A stretch of 64,000 nucleotides of DNA from Pegea sp. RAD2-039 (taxonomy: Eukaryota; Chordata; Thaliacea; Salpida; Salpidae), in NCBI GenBank assembly GCA_034620365.1, contig JAQGEQ010000170.1, forward strand, positions 434,001 through 498,000, written 5' to 3'. A model generated the notes under the pieces. The model saw nothing but the letters and a program-made list of their open reading frames with translations, was not told the DNA's origin and made no database searches. The translations under genes and the position numbers were made by a program. Of this stretch, positions 15,378-55,500 are shown in pieces; the stretch's first letter is position 1; every line of letters begins with the position of its first letter.

Positions 15378-18300
15378 ATGCCTGGTGACGATGATAGTGG
15401 TAACCATGCCAACAAACATGATGGCAGTGGACGATTAAAAAAGAATATGTCAAAAATGGCTTTTAGGAGCAAAGAAATGGTGATTTAACTGATCAGTATA
15501 GATCAATGATGTGAACAAGGATTATTTAGATGCTCCGGACTCTGGGAAGAACAGATGAGACCAAAGATGAGATCATTGACAATTACATCCACTTAGTCAA
15601 CAAACAACAGATCCAAGCACAAAAATTCCTTCGTGAACTTAAACTTTACATCTCATCCATCCAAGGTACGTGATGCTACGTCATAACGATGACGTCATCA
15701 AAGTGTTTCCTTTACAGCAATGAAACATGCATCAGCTAGTTTCTACCAATCAATCAGCGGAATATACGAAGAATCTTGGAGTGGTCATGACGTCATTTCC
15801 GGTTTACATAAAGTATTTGTCACCGTAAAAGCGCTCGACTCTTTCAACAAATCTTTTTCGACGGCAGAGATCAGATGAACTCTATGATCAGCTTCATCAC
15901 AAGCTCAATGACGTCATCATACATCCTTTGACGCTCTACTCACATCAGGTGATTGAGATGATTTGTCATTTCGCCCAATAACACCTCAATTGTAGTGTAA
16001 TGAAATTAGAGTGAAAGTAAATAAGCGAGGGAGGAAATTGGTCGATTTCGATGCTGCGCGACGAAATTACCACCAAATTCAAGGTGCGAAGAAAGTCGAC
16101 GATGTCAAGTTGAAAAAGGTGACGTCATAAGTGTGATGACGTGATCATATGTAACGTCGATGTGTCGAGAAGGCGAAGGAACAAATGAATATAAGCGGAA
16201 GAAAGTATGAAGATCTGAACGCGGAGCTACATCAGCAACTTCCTGATCTTTATGATGCGCGTGTCTTGTTGTTTGCTAATATTGTCACTGATATCTCAAC
16301 GGCTGAAAACTGTTTCTATGGCGAGATGTCGGAAGTTCGTAGCAGTCGACTATCGCGTTTGTGACGTCATCGCTATTTTCACGTAGGTCCGAGGCAAGTT
16401 GTTGTTGATGGCGGAAACTTTAAAAGAAAATTTCTCTCATGGCGGATTCCATATTCAGCGCTTATACTCGCCCAAGTGAGTGACGTAGTTGATGACGTAG
16501 ATGATGATGTAGTTGATGACGTCATATGTTCGTAGATATCCAAAAGAAGAGATAGAAAATGATCAGAGCAATGATGCTGCTACGTTACCTTGTAGTGATC
16601 GACTTACTTCAAGTGACGCGGCTTCGTATCGAACTGATGACGTCACATGTGACCAGGGGTCGCCTAGCAACCAGTTAGTGATCAGTGATTGGCTGATGGT
16701 CGGTTTAATTTGTTTGTTGATATTTGAAGAGAGAGTAATTATGTCAACGTCATCACCTTTCCTATTCCTTCACAGTCTCGAGATGATGACGTCACTGATG
16801 ACGTCACTAACCTCGCTGCGAACAAAATGGCGAAGGTGAAAACTTTTTATTTTTTTAATTTGAAAAATTTCAGATTTTTTGTATTGAAAATAATTTTGAT
16901 GTTCTTTGTTAAATATTTGGTGAAATAATTTCACTTTCGAGTGCCTGAAGCAAGATAACTTGAATTTGAAATACGGAAATAATTATTCGTTCAACAAGTG
17001 ATTATTAGCAATAGAAGCAGTTTAGTGTGAAAAAGGTAATTTAATAAATACAATCTCAAGTAATTGATCGATCAATTGATGTGTTGATGCTTTTGTAATC
17101 CAATTATTCAATCTTTTTTGCTCATTAAGCATTCATTAACTTGTGGATACCAACAGCTTTTCAAAAATTCAAGTTTTTAGGCAACAAATCAGGTTTTTCA
17201 ATTTTCGGGAGCTTTTATTGACCCTTACACCCATTTCTTTAATAAATATTAATCAAATAGAAGACATACTGGGTGATAAGATCAGTTTCTCTGTTTTTAT
17301 TCTTTCTTTATCATCAGCTTACATTTAAATATTCGGAAATCTATTTGAACAATTATTTGAATAATTTTGTTAATTGGTTTATTCTAAGTGTTTCCAAATA
17401 TCTTTTTTAATTTACTTTGAAAACTGTAGATGCTTATTTGTAGGTTTTAATGAAATACAGTTTATTTTACATTTAGAAGTTTTTCGATAAAAAGACAACT
17501 GCTGATATTTGAATAACTTTAATGAAATTACAATAAAAGTATTTAAAACAATTTAAATTGTTTAACTCGTGACAATGTAATATTTGTATAAAAATAAACA
17601 ATTTTTTATCTAATTTGATTTAACAATAAACTAATTTATTACTTTTGAAACTTAGAATGATTTTCTTAAAGTTATTTTTTACATATTTTCAATTATATAT
17701 TTTTTATTGTTGTGATTTTTTGATTGAAACAAAATTGAATAAAGTTTCTTTAATTTGAACTACTTCTGAAATATTCGAAACTTCCAGAAAAAAGATTTCC
17801 TCTTTGACTTACCATCAAATTATTTTTACAATTTAACCAACAAAATCTGCTAAAAATCATTTCTAAAAAATAATTTCAACAGAAGCTTTCTAAGCTAATT
17901 GTCTTTTCAGCCAAATAATTAAATTTTTAAACTTAATTACAGAGCTCTCTTGAAAATCAATTTAAAAGATTTTTATAAATATTTGAAATGTTGAATTAGA
18001 TTAAGTTGGTTTTCAGTTTTGGAATTTCAATCACTTTTTACTTTAGAAACAAAAAGAGAAAAAAGCTCCAATTGCAGCACCTCGACTAACGCCAACACCG
18101 CCAAAGAGTTCTCCTCCTGATAGCGCTCTGGATGATGAAGACACATCAGATACAAGTGACGAGGAGTCTGTAAACGAGGTTTCTTCCTTTTTATTTTCAT
18201 TTACTTTTTTCATTTTGAACAATTTCGCTAAAAGGCTGCAGCAGAAGTTGAAGAGGGTTTCCAAACAAAATTCAGAAAATTTTTTCAAAAAACTCAGCAG

Positions 18301-19697
18301 CAACCCTCAGAAACAAACAAATCTCCACTTTCTCGTTTGCTCAATCGCAAGTCACGTGACTTCAGTGACGATAAGATATCAGATGTTCCCTATGACGAGT
18401 CACCATTTGTTGCAAAAATCACAAAGGCTGAAGACTCGATACCCAAAGTGCACCGATCAGCTCCACCTAAACCTCCAGGAAGTTTCAGCAAAGGGAAAGT
18501 CCCCGTTGTGGTCACAAGCAAAAGCGATGACGACATGAAAAACGGAGAAAAAACAGCAAAAGATGACGTCACCATGGCTTCGCATACTGATGAATCTGCT
18601 ATAGTTTATGACGTCATCAAACCAGCGTCTGAAGGAAGCAATGACGTCATCAGATTGCTGCCACTAAATTCTGAAGTTTTGAAGATTGAATCTGATGACG
18701 TCATCACTAACAGTACAAAAGCTGTTGATGACGTCATCACTAACAGTAGAAAAGCTGTTGATGACGTCATCACTAACAGTACAAAAGCTGTTGATGAGGA
18801 CGTCACTGCTATATCAGAAGTCGAAAGTTTAAATTCAGGTCGTTGTCTTGACCATAAAGATACTAAAAGCGATGACGTCACTTCCCAATCGTCAACAGAC
18901 GAATCAGATGTTAGTGAATTTATCAATCGAATATCTACTGATGACGATGATGACGTCACTCTCAACGAGGTGACTGCAACAACCAATCAGCGATCAGAAC
19001 AAAAATTTGTTTGGCAAAAAATCAGAGAAATTATTTTCAAACAATTTTTATAATTTTCATAAATTTGCATCAAACAAAAATTATTACCGAATCATCCTAA
19101 ATAATTATTTTATATTTTTAATCTTTATTTTATATCAACTGATCTTCATCATTTACATCAACTGATCTTCATCATTTACATCAACTGATCTTCATCATCT
19201 CTTTCTTCCAGAAACTTCTCTCCCATCATGATTCGCCAATGGCTTCACCTTCTCATGACCACGTGACGAAAGAAGTGATCGAAACAAGTGAGTACTGACG
19301 TCATCACTTGCTGAAGTCATCATTTGAATTTGAACAGACGATAAAACGAAGCAACTGGGCAACAATGGAATTCTGCCACCTCACTACATTTACACGGTCA
19401 GTCAACCTGTCCTCTTAGTCAGATGGTATCCAGCTTTCTGTCCAGGTTCAAGCTCAACATAGGTACACTGGCGAGGACAATGATGAACTATCGTTCGAGA
19501 AGAATGACGTCATCTACGTAGTCGAGTTTCCTGATCCTGATGAACAGGTATCTCATCCAACCATTTTTTGCTCTTCCTGATAATCAAGTCTTTAGGATGA
19601 AGGATGGCAAATGGGAGTGTTGAAATCTGCTTGGGATTGCGATGTTTCCATGGCAACCAGGGGTCTTTTCCCCGAAAATTTTACGAAGAAAATTTGA
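15378..19697 (+). CDS. AMPH: Amphiphysin / BIN1 family protein (N-BAR and SH3)
   Basis: A membrane-curving scaffold of endocytosis and T-tubules. Proposed exons: 15378-15479, 15530-15665, 15718-15812, 15868-15948, 15996-16118, 16170-16334, 16387-16475, 16536-16677 (3' end uncertain), 16776-16835, 18047-18178, 18235-18969, 19212-19287, 19338-19396, 19446-19547, 19596-19697; about 732 residues, phases consistent. Exons 1-7 encode the N-BAR domain (residues 1-264), with the amphipathic helix [10 protein letters not shown], then [24 protein letters not shown] and [13 protein letters not shown]. The middle is acidic, with [22 protein letters not shown] and many DDV[IT] repeats. The SH3 domain ends it: [26 protein letters not shown] and [11 protein letters not shown]. 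Ten introns are only 47-60 bases. No clathrin/AP2 box was recognised. Could be called AMPH or BIN1; invertebrates have one ancestral gene. Confidence 0.9.
16836..18046 (+). other. Long AT-rich intron of amphiphysin
   Basis: The only long intron of this gene. It starts GTGAAA after LAANKMAK and ends TTTACTTTAG before [12 protein letters not shown] see no exon or element inside it. Its base composition is like the intergenic DNA, unlike the short introns around it. Confidence 0.6.
18693..18795 (+). repeat. 33-base in-frame tandem repeat in amphiphysin exon 11
   Basis: Three copies plus a partial fourth of a 33-base unit encoding [11 protein letters not shown], separated by one or two base changes. 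Each copy holds one TGACGTCA. The repeat keeps the reading frame. Confidence 0.9.
19134..19202 (+). repeat. Three tandem copies of a 23-base unit
   Basis: ATCAACTGATCTTCATCATT plus TAC is repeated three times, the last copy slightly altered, directly upstream of the acceptor at 19211 in amphiphysin intron 11. It forms part of the pyrimidine-rich end of that intron. Confidence 0.9.
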
Positions 19698-25300: not shown

Positions 25301-26089
25301 AAGCTAATAAACATTTTACGTTTTGATTTTGTTTTCATTTGGTTGCAGTTTGACAAAACCGGAATCCGAAATATTAGAAAATAAAAGATTACTAAAATCT
25401 TGCATATAAGTAAAACTTATAAAAGTTTGATGATAAAATAACCTTTTAGTTACTTCAAGTATCTTCACCAAAATTACACCAAAGAGCTTTCCAAAAGTTT
25501 ATATAATCATATCTTCTTTGTTTTTACTTAAAATTATGGTTTGGAACTCTTTACAGACGTACCCATTTATAGCAATACTTCATAGACAATTTATCTTCTG
25601 TATGACGTACTGATCTGTTTCTTTTTAAACCTAAACTGGCAGCTGTCATCTACAAATAGAAAATGACGTCATCAGCCATTTGCAAGTAGATCTTCTTGCG
25701 TCGATTACGCTTGAATATCAAATTAACCTTGAAGATCTTCCCTATTACAAGCTGTATGTTTTTAAGTTTAAGCTATCATTAAAAATGACAGAAGGTATGG
25801 GCCATACTAAAATGTCAAATTAGAAAAGTGTGACAAATTCTATCAGCTCATTTCATAACATTTTAATTTTGTTTTTATCTTACCTTTAAATATTTTTAAG
25901 CTTTCTGTACACTTTGATTTAAGTTATTAACTTTTAATAAAATGATATAGAGTATTGCTATTCAATCGTAAAAATAAATTTCTGTCCTATTCATCTATCA
26001 TAAGTAACTTTTAATCAAATTAATAAATAATTTTAAACAAACCGACTGTCTGCAAAAAACTGTTAATTTTTGCAACAAATGCAAAAAGT
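22311..26089. other. AT-rich intergenic region
   Basis: No coding region is supported. Open frames at 24192-24443 and 25048-25236 have no recognisable domain and the composition of random AT-rich DNA. One isolated TGACGTCA occurs at about 25663 inside a slightly GC-richer stretch (25620-25760). Confidence 0.55.
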
Positions 26090-26613: not shown

Positions 26614-27525
26614 GCTTCACTACTTAATTGTAACAACAAAAAACAATAAACTCTTGCACTAAGCTGAATTTACTTTTATATTATCTTTAACCTTTTTTCT
26701 TTCTCTTTTAATTTCCAGTTGTCAATGAAGTCATCAATTCTAGAAATTACTATCCTCCTTATGAGGTAATATCAATTAAGAAATGTATTTAATGGTTTAA
26801 TGTTTTTAATTCAGTTTTTCAGTAACTTTAATTTCAGTTATTTGAAAAATTAATTCTAATTTTAGGAAACGTGTTCTTACAGCAAATCTACAAAAGAACT
26901 ATTTTTAAAGCATCAGAAATATGACTCAAAACAACAGAAATAAAATTATAAGAATAAAAAGTAATATTCTAAACACATAACTTTTATTGAATTGTGTTTT
27001 TTAATTCAAATTCTTTTTGATATTTTACTTCTTAGAAGTGTTCTTTACTATATGAACTTTTATAAATTACACAAAGTTGAAATTGTTTCAGATATTCTAT
27101 AAACCTTAAAATATTTCAAACTTAGAAAACAATTACTACAAACGTTAAGATTTATGTTTTTATGAAAAAAAAAACATTGTTGGGTACCAATTGTTTCAAA
27201 TAAGTTGAAAGCAAAGGTTTTTTTTTTTAAGTTCTAACCACGTGTAAAACGATTTATCTAGATATAACATTCTAGTTAAACAGATTTATATACAAATACA
27301 TCATGAAATAAATAAAAAAATACTAGCATTAATAAAACTTTATAATTTTATTGTTTTATGTGATTTTCTTTTATCACTATTGAATTTTTCTCTAAAAATA
27401 TCTTTTCTTTGATGATATATATAAATAACTTAATAACAGATTACCAAATATCTCCAACTTTTCACATTAACATCTAATTATTCTGTATTGAAAAAATTAT
27501 ATTGATTAACTTTTCATTAGTATGT

Positions 27526-27655
27526 GCTTTTTGTATGCAAACATTTTCCTTGTCTGGTTAAAGATTTAAAAAGTCATAAACAAAGTTATTGCTTTTTGTA
27601 TGCAAACATTTTCCTTGTCTGGTTAAAGATTTAAAAAGTCATAAACAAAGTTATT
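27526..27655. repeat. Perfect 65-base tandem duplication
   Basis: 27526-27590 and 27591-27655 are identical by eye; a third partial copy (GCTTTTT) follows. The unit begins GCTTTTTGTATGCAAACATT. It contains ATGCAAA-like octamer DNA, but no function is evident. Confidence 0.95.
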
Positions 27656-28073
27656 GCTTTTTGGATAATTATTCAATATTATAAATTCTTTAAAATGCAT
27701 TTTTGAAAAAAAAAAAAAAAAGTTTAAGTAAAGATTTAAGCAGTTTGTAAATTTGACAAATAAAAAGCTTATTTAAACTAAAAGAATCAACTATTGATGA
27801 TATACAACATTTTCAAATGACTAGCTGACAAAGCTTGAGGTTACAAAAAGGTCCTTTTACAAAAATTTTTGAATTCACTAGAAATCAACAGAATGTCTTA
27901 ATAGATCCTGTTACCATCAAAATTTAAATTTAAATACAATTTTGGTTTAATTTATTCAATCCTTTAATATCTGTGATATCTTGAACTGTATAGCAGAAAG
28001 TTGCCTCGTTGCACATGTAAATGTCATTCAAATAAACTCGCTTACTTGCTTATAGGGGTTTCTGTGTGACACA

Positions 28074-28112: not shown

Positions 28113-30184
28113 ATTTTATAATATATTAAAGCTCTCGTAAACAGTTATTATTATTACAGTATCAGAAAACTACTCCGCAAGGAATACATAAATTGGATCG
28201 ATACAAAAGAGTTCCTAGTTATGATTGGAAGAATTATTTTTCACCACATTTGTTACTTCATCTGTATAAGACTTTCTGATGTCTTCCCATGTCTCAGTTA
28301 AGTCTTAAATTGAGCTTTTCAAGTGTTTTCTTGAAAACCCGTGCACAAAAATACTACACAAATTCTGTACAAGTCAGCAAAGTGGATTTTATAGAAGCCT
28401 AAATTAAACTTTCTTTAATTGTTTCAAACACCTTCTTTTTTAAAATTATCAAAATTTTAAGTTGAATTTTTAACATATTTTTTTTATTAATTAAAACCGT
28501 TGAAGTCGGTCAACTTCAGAAAACAAAAAAGTAGTTTTGATTTAGTGCAACTTTAACATTTTGTTTATTCGTTGTTTTATTCTAATTTTATTCTAGCAGA
28601 ATATCTTCAATCAACTAAAAATAATTAAAGAAACTCAACATTTTCTAAAATATATGTTTTTAAAGATAGTAATTGTTTTGATATATGTGTTAGGCTATTA
28701 TGTACCTGGGGTCTTCAAATGGTGCTACAGACCTTTAAAAACCTTCAATAAAACTTACTCAAGCGCAAAAAGTTTCTGTAAGAATACTCGAGTCATTAGA
28801 AAGTATCTTTTTGCACATATAAGATATTTTTTGTTGCTTTATTATTAAAATCTTTAATAAAACTTATATTTGTGAACAAAAATTCATCAATTATTTGGTT
28901 TAGATAAAAATAATCCTTAAAAGTCATTTTCACTAGCTAATAAGTTTGTATTTTAAAAGAAAGTTTTAAAACTAAGAAGCTAGAGATTGAAGACTTCATG
29001 TACAATGTATGAATTTGCAAAACAAAGTATTAAAAATCTTAAGTAATATTGAAAGAAACTTCAAACTTTTATTTTTAAGATTTTAAATTTTGCTCATTAC
29101 TACTTGTTAACTTTCATTTTAAAATGTTTTAGTTCCCAGAAAATGTTTTCTAATCTTTTATCTACTTTTTAATCGCGCAAGTTGAAAATAAATAAAGATA
29201 ACTTGATCAACTTACAATGATGTCCAAGTAACAAAGCAGAGAGTAGCCTTGAAGCTGGAGTCTTTAAAATAGTTTTTACATGTTTGAAAGTTTTGATTCT
29301 ATTTATGAGTTTTATATGATGTGAAGCCATTAGAAACTGAGTTTCAGTATAGTCGAAGAAACTGATACATTTATAACATAGATTTATTCATAACATATTT
29401 CAAATGACAATGCTTTAAATGTTAACATAGTCTTCAAAGTTATATACGAGTTGATCATACTGATAGAAAAAAAGGTATTTTCAGTCGTATCAAACAAGTA
29501 CTTGGGAAAATATTTCTATTAAAGGTTTTAGAAGTTAATAATTTTGTTATTTAAGTAAAACCTAAAATTGGTTATTTGCACATACAATCACAGATTAGAA
29601 AGAAGAACGGAGGTTCGATTTCACAAAAAGTTCGATTTACTTCAAGTCATTGACGCAAGAAATAAAACACAAAATTCAAGATGCTAAAAAAACGAAGCAA
29701 GTATAGGAGGGGAGACTGTTGATTGTGAAGTTAATTTGTTTGAAAAAGAAATCCTCTCAAGTTAAAACAAACTTGTTGTGTATATTGGAGAAAGAATTAA
29801 TTTTTGTTCGTCTTACAAATTCAGCAGCTGGTAGAGAAAGATCAAGAAAGAAGTTGATAAACTACAGGCCAACTGACATCGAAGTTTTGGCAGTGATACT
29901 GATGTTATCGTTTGTAGTAATTATAAATCGAAGCAATGATTCGTTTGCAAATCATTGCAAGGGTCATTAGAGAGGATAACTAGTTACTGATCATGCAAAG
30001 TATTGTCAAGACCTGTCACTCACAACAAAAGAGATATCATAAAAGTTTAAGCTTCACGAAAGTGTTAAATTCAACATAGAATTGCCACAAAGAAAATTTT
30101 GTAAGTTGATGACGTCATGTGATTGAAATCAAGTGATGCTTGTCAAGATATGAAGATAATAATACAAAGATTAAATCCCGTCTG

Positions 30185-52573: not shown

Positions 52574-55500
52574 CTAATTTTCCAATTTCTTATCATCAGA
52601 AATGACTTGTTTGAAAGCGCTGGCGCCAAGAAACTTCTTGTAATAGCTTGGAAGGCTTGAACGTTGTGTTTTAGCAATTGCTAGGTGATAAAATTATGAC
52701 TTGTGAGGCTTATAAAAATTTAATAGATTTATTAAAAGTTTAGTAGAAGAGTTAGATAAATGATTAACAAATACTTGAGAGATTTAATGATAGTAGTAAA
52801 TACATTTCTCAACTAAATATCTTTTTTAACAAACCTTTTGCTTTGAAAGATTCTTCTTTGTTTGAATTTGTTAAATGTTGCCGTTTTATTTCACCGTTAT
52901 TAAGCAACTCTACCCCTCCTATAGGTGCAGCACTGAAATTTTCATGCTCTACCTAAAATAAAAGCTTTTCGATAGAGACAATAGATTTGAAAAGTTGTAA
53001 AACCTGTTGTTTAGACTGTGGAATAAATTTAAAAATTTTTGGACTATTATCTCGTAAGTCATTTAAACTTCCATCTCCTTTTAGAAGTTTAAATGACTCT
53101 TGCTGCTTCAATTTCTTTTTTGATTCTTCTTCAGCTGTTTTCTTCGAGTTTTTCCTCCTCATTTTTTCAATCTTTTCATGAAGATCTTTAATCATTGCTT
53201 CAGTCTCTTCTTCAGGAGACATGCCATCATTAATAAACGACTAAAGAACCAAATATCATTTAACAAAATAGTGATTCACTAATCAAATTGCACTAACAGC
53301 TGACGGAGGCTTGGATAGAGAAGTTTTTGATTTTACAGAAGCAGCAGCCTGCAAGTTAACGAGAAGTTTTGTGTCTAAGCTCTTCTTCCATCTATCTTCC
53401 TTTTTCTGTGGCTGTAACAACAAGTTGATAATAAAATGATAAAATTGTCGACAAGCGAACCTTTTCACTTTCAAGTTTCTTTTCAGCATTAGAAACTTCA
53501 GTAGGTTCTATTTTCAGCTTTTCACATAAATCTTCTTCAATGTCTTCTGCCTGCACCAAACAACTTTCATCAAAATGTTCAAATTTCACAAATACAATTC
53601 TGACTTTCACATCCAAACTTGTTGAAGTCTGAAGATCTTCAAAGAGTGAATCCGGAGGTGGCGGGAAATCGTCATTAGATGCTACTGAGCTTACATCATC
53701 TGCAACCACATCTTGCAAATCATCAAGATCTTTTAAGACATCATCTAAGACTTCCTTGAAAATGTTTAACAAAATTGATTTAGAGGACAAGAAGGAAAAG
53801 AAATGAAAAATATTTCAAAAATAGAAATAAATGGAAAATATTTGTTGGAAAGTTAAACAAATCAATTTGAATGTTTACTTGATTGTGTCAACAAACTAAA
53901 TAGTGAAAAACATTATTCAAATTAGAGCTGAAAAAGTTGATCAGACCTTAGTTAAGGAAGATGTGGTAGATGAAGCTTCGGTCACATGATCACAATCACT
54001 AGGAGTCGGGTCTTCATCTTCATCAATTTCATTCTTGAAAATTATTTGAAAAATTATGAAAAAAATGAAATTGCTACCAATCTAAACATCAATCATATAT
54101 CAATTGTAGGCACTTAAAAAAGAAATTGATTTTACTGAAGAATGTTGCTCAGTACAAACATAAGTTTATTTCTCTCAATTTCATTATTTACACTTGAATT
54201 TATTTACTCGTTTTGTTGAAATATTTTTGAGGTTTGAACTTTTGTTGAATAAACTTTTTTCAGCAAATCAAATTCGATAAGAAAAATTCACTTTTTTAAT
54301 TTTGTCATTTAATTCATCTTCTAGTTGAGACTTTTCTTCATCTGATCTTTGAATCTCTTCATTGTCAGCTTTTGATGACGTAATTACTTCTATATCCGTA
54401 CAGCTAACAGATGGGGTCTCCTGATTATCCTTAAAATCTTTTTCAGAGGAATCATCCGATGACGTCATTAGGGATTTAGATGATTCTCTGGTAGCTATAT
54501 GTGACAAACGATCTGATAAATGATAATATGAAGATGAATACAATCAAGAAACCTTCTTCAAGTTCATTCAAAACTTCTTTTTCGTCCAGATTTTCTACAA
54601 AATTAAAAACAAATCTTCAAAAACCACAAATTTATTTGAGGCCAGCAAGAAATACCGGAAGCAATTTTCATTATTAAATTTACTTCTTAATTTAATCAAG
54701 ATATTTAATTTATAATTTATTAATCAGGAATTTGGTCTTCAAAATTAAGTTTAGCTTTTTGACATCCGGTTTGAATGAAAACTAAAATAGGTGAACTTAT
54801 GTAGCAGTAAAATAGAAATCAATCAACCCTAGCCAATAACAAATTAAATAATCAGTAGAGAAATCGGAAAACCAACAGGAAGACATAATATACAAAATTG
54901 AAATTTAAAACAAAATCAATTAATAAAATAGACAGATGAGAAATAAAACGAAGAACTGTTTGATAAACATGTATGGAAAGATAAGAAGTTGGTTGAAGGT
55001 GGAAAAGGGCGGAATTGGAAGAATGGTGCGGAGATGTTTACAGCATAAATATTTCATCTATAAATATTTGATAATAGTTCACTTCTTTATTGGTGTCTAT
55101 ATTTTAGATTAAAACAATTAACAAATAATTCATCAACGAAAAAATTCCAAGAAAAAATATTGTAGACGTGATTAAAATAAGTGGTTCAAAATGGATCGTG
55201 ACAGAAATGGCCTGTATAAGTCAGTGACCTTAAGGTTAAAATGTGTAAAATTGATGTCAAAAACTAACCTGTTACGTTAGATGCTATTTTATCACAATCC
55301 ACAACTTCAGAGTTTGGTTTCTGTTCAAATAAAAAACTGAAATTTAAACTATTCAAAAATAAAAAAAAGTTCTTTAATAAAGCTGCAAAATATTAATTCT
55401 ATAAAAACTTGCTTCTAACCAAATTTGTAATAAGCTTAGAAAGAAGAGTTAAAAAATGAATAAAAACCTCATTAGAAAGATCGTGAAGATTTCCATCAGC

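Follow-up and report, generated by a model that had tools for sequence, protein, structure and literature searches.

HIP1, the highly iterated palindrome of cyanobacteria, occurs in coding DNA; DNA uptake sequences and Chi sites are not palindromic and are tied to transformation or RecBCD. Copies of HIP1 number 300-2700 per Mb, a 55-228-fold excess, the word has palindromic extensions, and one-off copies are frequent in many HIP1 genomes but not in all; DNA uptake sequences and Chi sites are also named among over-represented bacterial words (PMC4390886; papers are cited by PMC number for the passages drawn on, and what is attributed to them holds for those passages). The cAMP response element (CRE), the CREB/ATF consensus site, clusters near start sites in vertebrates but shows no such bias in Ciona (PMC1796609). 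At ade6-M26 of fission yeast a CRE-like word lies in coding DNA and is read by an ATF/CREB basic leucine zipper (bZIP) protein (PMC9775316), and in Ciona notochord enhancers TRTGACGTCA was the sole significant motif, with 10 occurrences in a 1.8-kb Spalt-like region (PMC11001920). Here we report that the exact octamer TGACGTCA (CRE hereafter means this octamer) crowds an amphiphysin/BIN1-type gene in a 64-kb stretch of contig JAQGEQ010000170.1 of Pegea sp. RAD2-039 (the window), and that this gene is one dense example, not an exception, of a lineage-wide excess.

The locus resembles each of these systems in part. The word is the exact CREB/ATF consensus with the same purine/pyrimidine (R/Y) flanks, but unlike vertebrate CREs its copies fill gene bodies, up to 24 per 3 kb (locus L037); the lack of start-site bias in Ciona is as expected if copies lie throughout genes. 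HIP1 is the nearest analogue of the excess. Both are palindromic octamers in tens-fold excess with a palindromic extension, the CRE excess being slightly below the HIP1 range, whereas the word described here occurs in an animal, is regionally clumped, has a small halo of one-off copies and coincides with a transcription-factor site; one-off copies, common in many HIP1 genomes, were not common in the clustered segments described below. DNA uptake sequences and Chi share with it a short word over-represented via a DNA-level process. Like our gene, ade6-M26 has a CRE-type word inside coding DNA, but the full CRE in ade6 makes no hotspot. The Ciona motif is the same word with the same flank, there an enhancer motif of variable relevance, and its enrichment suggests that the habit may extend to Ciona; the passages of PMC11001920 do not mention an excess in exons or across the genome, and no report of a genome-wide CRE excess in tunicates was found in the searched literature, which did not cover preprints.

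Excess of the Octamer in the Window and the Genome

An exact motif scan found 22 copies of TGACGTCA in the window, where dinucleotide shuffles gave a mean of 0.37 and a maximum of 2, none of 100 reaching 22. Nineteen of them lie within 15690-19512, all inside one gene, and the other three at 25664, 30110 and 54460. A sequence-only reading of the window had already listed the 19 copies in one gene and the three outside it, the latter one or two positions off, and both counts held. Among the 256 palindromic octamers the CRE has the top excess in the window (22 vs. 0.40 expected under a second-order model), the runner-up being AAGATCTT (14 vs. 4.1 under the same model). The same reading had proposed a genome-wide count against a Markov expectation as the way to tell a lineage-wide bias from local function. 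Across the 105.7-Mb genome we found 27,792 copies where 552 (order 1) or 440 (order 2) were expected, a 50-63-fold excess, using models trained on 304 kb (a sample plus the window) with CRE copies masked. For the reversed word ACTGCAGT, taken as control, 969 copies were found against 966 (order 1) or 1,024 (order 2) expected, showing that the model fits. The density of the CRE is 263 per Mb, 38.7-fold above the base-composition expectation, and ATGACGTCAT occurs 11,048 times genome-wide against 121 for its reversed word. Since the excess extends over the genome, it belongs to the lineage as a whole rather than to this gene, and it is real and far beyond chance. Chance or base composition as its cause was ruled out by the shuffles, the Markov models and the sample counts, and protection of CpG from methylation should not by itself be able to yield a 50-fold excess over a model that holds the present CpG frequency.

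The 304 kb comprised 24 stretches of 10 kb and the window, which supplies 22 of the 48 copies. The stretches were evenly spaced on contigs C1, C3, C4, C6 and C11 only, of 387 contigs, and hold 26 copies in 240 kb. Their density of 0.11 per kb, where the whole genome has 0.26, means that dense regions are under-represented in them. Several of the top over-represented octamers of this sample overlap TGACGTCA. Four others were traced nearly entirely to one tandem array in the stretch L025, where words such as CTGGTCCC and GCAACCAC reach 61-92 copies each within 10 kb. A second palindrome of E-box type, TCACGTGA, occurs 4,614 times genome-wide, 8-10-fold over expectation; its reversed word (237 copies) is itself 3-4-fold under expectation, and TCACGTGA is also enriched in segments with clustered CREs (10 vs. 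0.6).

The copies are clumped regionally. The 24 stretches hold 0 to 6 each (mean 1.08, variance 3.5), and among the first 100 ATGACGTCAT listed on C1, 37 are spread over the first 2.0 Mb and the following 129 kb hold 63. This dense stretch of about 129 kb (C1:2014525-2143133) contains at least 63 copies of ATGACGTCAT at irregular spacing, and L037 has 24 TGACGTCA in 3 kb of an apparent gene with short introns. No link was detected between copy number and G+C content per 10-kb stretch (Spearman 0.17, p 0.44, 24 stretches). Per 300-bp tile, window included, the excess rises with G+C, from 4 vs. 0.58 expected below 0.30 to 30 vs. 0.56 at 0.38 or more. The observed/expected ratio of CpG in the clustered segments, CREs left out, ranges from 0.30 to 1.48.

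Sharpness and Flanks of the Word

A set of 20 segments (21,030 bp) was picked for clustered CREs. It includes L001, L002, L004, L037, L038 and L040, fetched because of close pairs or densely packed copies; as it overlaps L002, L003 was omitted, L038 was trimmed to its first 1,740 bases and L042 was not counted, while the codon-score analysis used L038 whole and L005-L012 for training. These segments hold 93 CREs where 0.39 are expected, although their selection inflates this ratio. The 12 one-mismatch classes together reach 17 against 9.8, and the C-to-T product 3 against 2.2.

The word extends beyond eight bases. Genome-wide, 23,214 of the 27,792 copies (83.5%) read RTGACGTCAY, where about 25% are expected by strand symmetry, and the same flanks accompany 228 of the 969 reversed controls (23.5%). 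Of the 200 half-sites at 100 sites, 92% have a purine directly before the octamer, the commonest flanking triplet is TGA (65/200), left and right flanks are independent of each other (0.52 equal vs. 0.51 expected), and clear bias is limited to about 3 bases on each side. Our results thus show RTGACGTCAY in over twenty thousand copies, crowding some genes and regions, with few one-letter-off neighbours near the clusters. Such symmetric half-sites, each varying independently, indicate a protein that binds DNA as a dimer. CREB/ATF bZIP proteins prefer a site in which a purine precedes the octamer and a pyrimidine follows it, a half-site habit of bZIP proteins. The genome has 12 bZIP_1 matches, and a bZIP dimer is the likely reader of the word; the earlier assignment of the motif to the CREB/ATF consensus is supported by the octamer and its flanks together. 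No clear helical phasing was seen in 72 spacings between adjacent copies up to 400 bp apart, some of them from loci chosen for close pairs (Rayleigh R 0.07 at 10.2 bp and 0.14 at 10.5 bp).

The Host Gene

The gene model was read from GT..AG introns and the open frame, and is a prediction from the sequence alone. The BAR domain matches PF03114 (E 1.1e-19), and the C-terminal SH3 domain gave four matches among solved structures, all of them BIN1/amphiphysin 2 (best 5i22_A, E 8.7e-19). The gene is therefore predicted to be an amphiphysin/BIN1 orthologue, from its N-terminal BAR domain and C-terminal BIN1-type SH3 domain. The features are collected in table 1.

Table 1. Features of the host gene and its octamer copies, with the copies elsewhere in the window (window positions)
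Feature	Position	Strand	Remarks
Amphiphysin/BIN1-type gene	15378..19697	+	15 exons, 739 aa; BAR, Pro-rich/acidic linker, C-terminal SH3
CRE	15690..15697	.	In 52-bp intron 15666-15717
Exonic CRE, phase 2, BAR domain	15788..15795	.	His-Asp-Val-Ile; motif scan, gene model, Pfam
Exonic CRE, phase 2, BAR domain	15909..15916	.	Asn-Asp-Val-Ile; motif scan, gene model, Pfam
CRE overlapping splice donor	16120..16127	.	Starts at intron base 2; 51-bp intron 16119-16169
CRE	16362..16369	.	In 52-bp intron 16335-16386
CRE closing 12-bp tandem repeat 16481-16522	16517..16524	.	60-bp intron 16476-16535
Exonic CRE, phase 2	16638..16645	.	Motif scan, gene model
Two exonic CREs, phase 2	16787..16806	.	Starts 16787, 16799; 12 bp apart
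1,211-bp intron without CRE	16836..18046	+	G+C 0.23; gene model
Eight exonic CREs, phase 2	18564..18958	.	Starts 18564, 18609, 18642, 18696, 18729, 18762, 18873, 18951; linker exon 18235-18969
33-bp tandem duplication	18693..18797	+	3.2 copies, holding three CREs
CRE	19296..19303	.	Eight bases into 50-bp intron 19288-19337
Exonic CRE, phase 2, SH3 domain	19505..19512	.	Asp-Val aligned to BIN1 Asp-Val
CRE outside gene	25664..25671	.	No coding segment by codon score
CRE outside gene	30110..30117	.	No coding segment by codon score
CRE in possible exon 54313-54495	54460..54467	exon on minus strand	Other phase (Met-Thr-Ser); no Pfam match

Fourteen of the 19 copies are exonic (two in the BAR domain, one in SH3 and eleven between), five lie in short introns and none in the long intron, as the sequence-only reading had described. 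The densities in exons (6.31 per kb over 2,220 bp) and short introns (5.62 per kb over 889 bp) are similar, and the probability of finding none in the long intron at the gene's density is 0.0006. This AT-rich intron is the sole long one of the gene and could be a young insertion, although its age is a guess. Elsewhere in the window, a perfect 65-bp tandem duplication of 2.1 copies lies at 27525-27663.

All 14 exonic copies read NNT-GAC-GTC-ANN and so write Asp-Val, a claim of the earlier reading that stood, with about 12 independent cases once the three copies in the 33-bp duplication are allowed for. Asp-Val pairs number 19 in the host protein against 5.3 expected from composition, and 15 of these 19 are written GAC-GTC (14 within CREs), where about 2 would be expected from the host-gene codons outside (GAC 19/59, GTC 12/34). 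In the host gene, then, the DNA word sets the codons where the protein has Asp-Val. The codon bias and the excess of pairs together indicate that the word picks codons where tolerated, and suggest that it also sets or adds residues in the linker. Both the codon choice and the near-equal exonic and intronic densities support a DNA-level cause over protein selection, which the earlier reading had argued.

A special meaning of the shared codon phase was not supported. TGA bars one of the three phases, and codon usage outside CREs predicts 0.71 for the observed phase over the alternative. Exons of L037, judged by eye from open frames, have 11 copies in the host-gene phase and 2 in the other, and a 696-bp open frame in L040 without Pfam match has 1 and 3; five open frames near CREs gave no Pfam match. 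The codon-usage prediction and the three of four other-phase copies in L040 ruled out the phase as a signal. Since codon usage predicts 0.71 and other frames use both phases, the shared phase needs no special cause, and it is best explained as a side effect of codon usage combined with what the protein tolerates.

Tunicate Character of the Genome

The Ciona spliced leader, ATTCTATTTGAATAAG (PMC7986045), has 272 exact copies (149 + 123) in the genome, and its reversed control none. The copies include a tandem array of spliced-leader RNA genes in units of about 199 bp at G000:C4:1135044-1142202, in which the leader is followed by GTAAGT; in 500 bp of this array (L039) the Ciona Sm word AGCTTTGG did not occur. 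Based on this array the genome was taken as tunicate. The tunicate cellulose synthase fusion carries glycosyl hydrolase 6, and a marginal match to that family (27.5 bits, cut-off 27) is in line with it. The G+C content of the sample is 0.286, and a search with mitochondrial COX1 gave no match.

What Maintains the Octamer

We propose that the CRE is here a lineage-wide iterated bZIP palindrome, maintained at the DNA level in gene bodies and encoding Asp-Val where the protein tolerates it, and we give this proposal a probability of about 0.5. The putative reader would be a CREB/ATF-type bZIP dimer on gene-body chromatin. Each site might be retained by weak selection for binding, through an intragenic regulatory or open-chromatin role, which is the least certain step. 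Tunicate populations are very large, and for that reason weak selection per site could work. We also counted in its favour the Cnot11 element of Ciona, in which TRTGACGTCA overlaps the needed AP-1 core (PMC11001920).

Several observations weigh against this proposal. Binding alone leaves the absence of CREs from the long intron unexplained, and 24 sites in 3 kb (L037) far exceed ordinary needs of gene regulation. Some decay exists, as is seen from the C-to-T product, which stands above expectation genome-wide (11,070 vs. 4,176, 2.7-fold). Counts for the 12 one-mismatch classes in the 304-kb sample come to 81 against 57, and the C-to-T product (27 vs. 12.3) makes up half or more of that excess; in the clustered segments TTACGTCA is the lone outlier among these classes (6 vs. 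0.6). Moreover, the Ciona motif lies mostly outside the minimal active elements, and a mutated CREB site and a divergent CREB half-site were dispensable (PMC11001920), which makes a strong role of individual sites less likely. A broader statement, at slightly less than even odds, is put forward tentatively: a self-propagating or selected CREB/ATF palindrome would occupy tens of thousands of sites, concentrated in the gene bodies of an animal lineage, set codons and insert Asp-Val through a bZIP agent, as a eukaryotic counterpart of the iterated palindromes of bacteria.

The alternative that survives best, although we hold it unlikely, is motif drive, in which biased gene conversion or repair spreads the word and no benefit to the organism is needed. 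A bound bZIP protein might, for example, shield the site from meiotic breaks, and the unbroken, site-bearing allele would then be copied onto the other allele. Such a process would suit a word that is sharply defined, has a small halo, occurs in exons and introns alike and overrides protein composition, and in fission yeast a meiotic recombination hotspot inside an open reading frame consists of the CRE-like ATGACGT together with Atf1 (PMC9775316). That site, however, promotes recombination, and a break-promoting site should erode by conversion; moreover, the full CRE TGACGTCA in ade6 is neither bound by Atf1-Pcr1 nor recombination-promoting (PMC9775316).

Two further mechanisms seem to us quite improbable, and to the same degree. 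A bias of mutation or repair could create the word without any binding function, as proposed for HIP1 through methylation-linked mismatch repair. The palindrome with its palindromic extension, at a density and fold excess slightly under the quoted HIP1 range, resembles that case, but its one-letter neighbours are few near the clusters, whereas many HIP1 genomes commonly contain one-off words, and the strong regional heterogeneity seen among the ATGACGTCAT listed on C1 also speaks against it. Alternatively, UGACGUCA in pre-mRNA might help splicing, export or escape from silencing. The copies do lie in exons and short introns, two of them near splice donors (16120 and 19296), with none in the long intron; however, each flank has its preference independently of the other, as a dimer on DNA would show, and the copies at 25664 and 30110 have no coding score, which is a weak point because the score also missed the exonic copies at 15788 and 15909, so that its noncoding calls are weak.

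That CREs spread as a mobile or tandem repeat is very improbable, and the excess is not mainly repeat-derived, though local duplication adds copies. The 33-bp duplication carries three host-gene copies, certain 6-bp spacers recur across contigs, local duplicates of about 36 bp in L042 bear CREs, and the 12-bp intronic repeat of the host gene resembles kb-long arrays elsewhere. At C38:687004-693985 (L038), five CRE pairs with the same 6-bp spacing lie 1,740 bp apart in a tandemly repeated unit. However, the one full-length genome match to the host gene listed was the gene itself, the flank bias is clear for just those few bases per side, and no CRE occurs in 500 bp of one 12-bp array. These 500 bp (L041, C29:1020501-1021000) read (ATCAACTACATC)n and belong to a long array, its unit is related to the intronic repeat 16481-16522, and similar matches lie on C247, C63, C200, C374 and C74. 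A gap of 0-30 separates the members of 5,280 CRE pairs; of the spacers listed for such pairs on C1, no two are identical, and two adjacent ones at 2032274-2032332 are related. Finally, that protein-level selection kept Asp-Val-Ile/Thr motifs in the host protein has practically negligible probability and is excluded as a general cause, since, although all 14 exonic copies encode Asp-Val, five intronic copies occur at similar density and other open frames also read the word as Met/Val/Leu-Thr-Ser.

Implications

That a transcription-factor site stands at 50-60 times expectation, is dense in coding exons and shows little decay means that, in an animal, protein composition yields to a force acting on the DNA. 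The case also allows motif drive and selection acting on weak sites to be tested directly against each other within a very large population. It cautions that CRE matches in the enhancers of tunicates say little about function, and it gives the iterated palindromes of bacteria, themselves unexplained, a counterpart in an animal.

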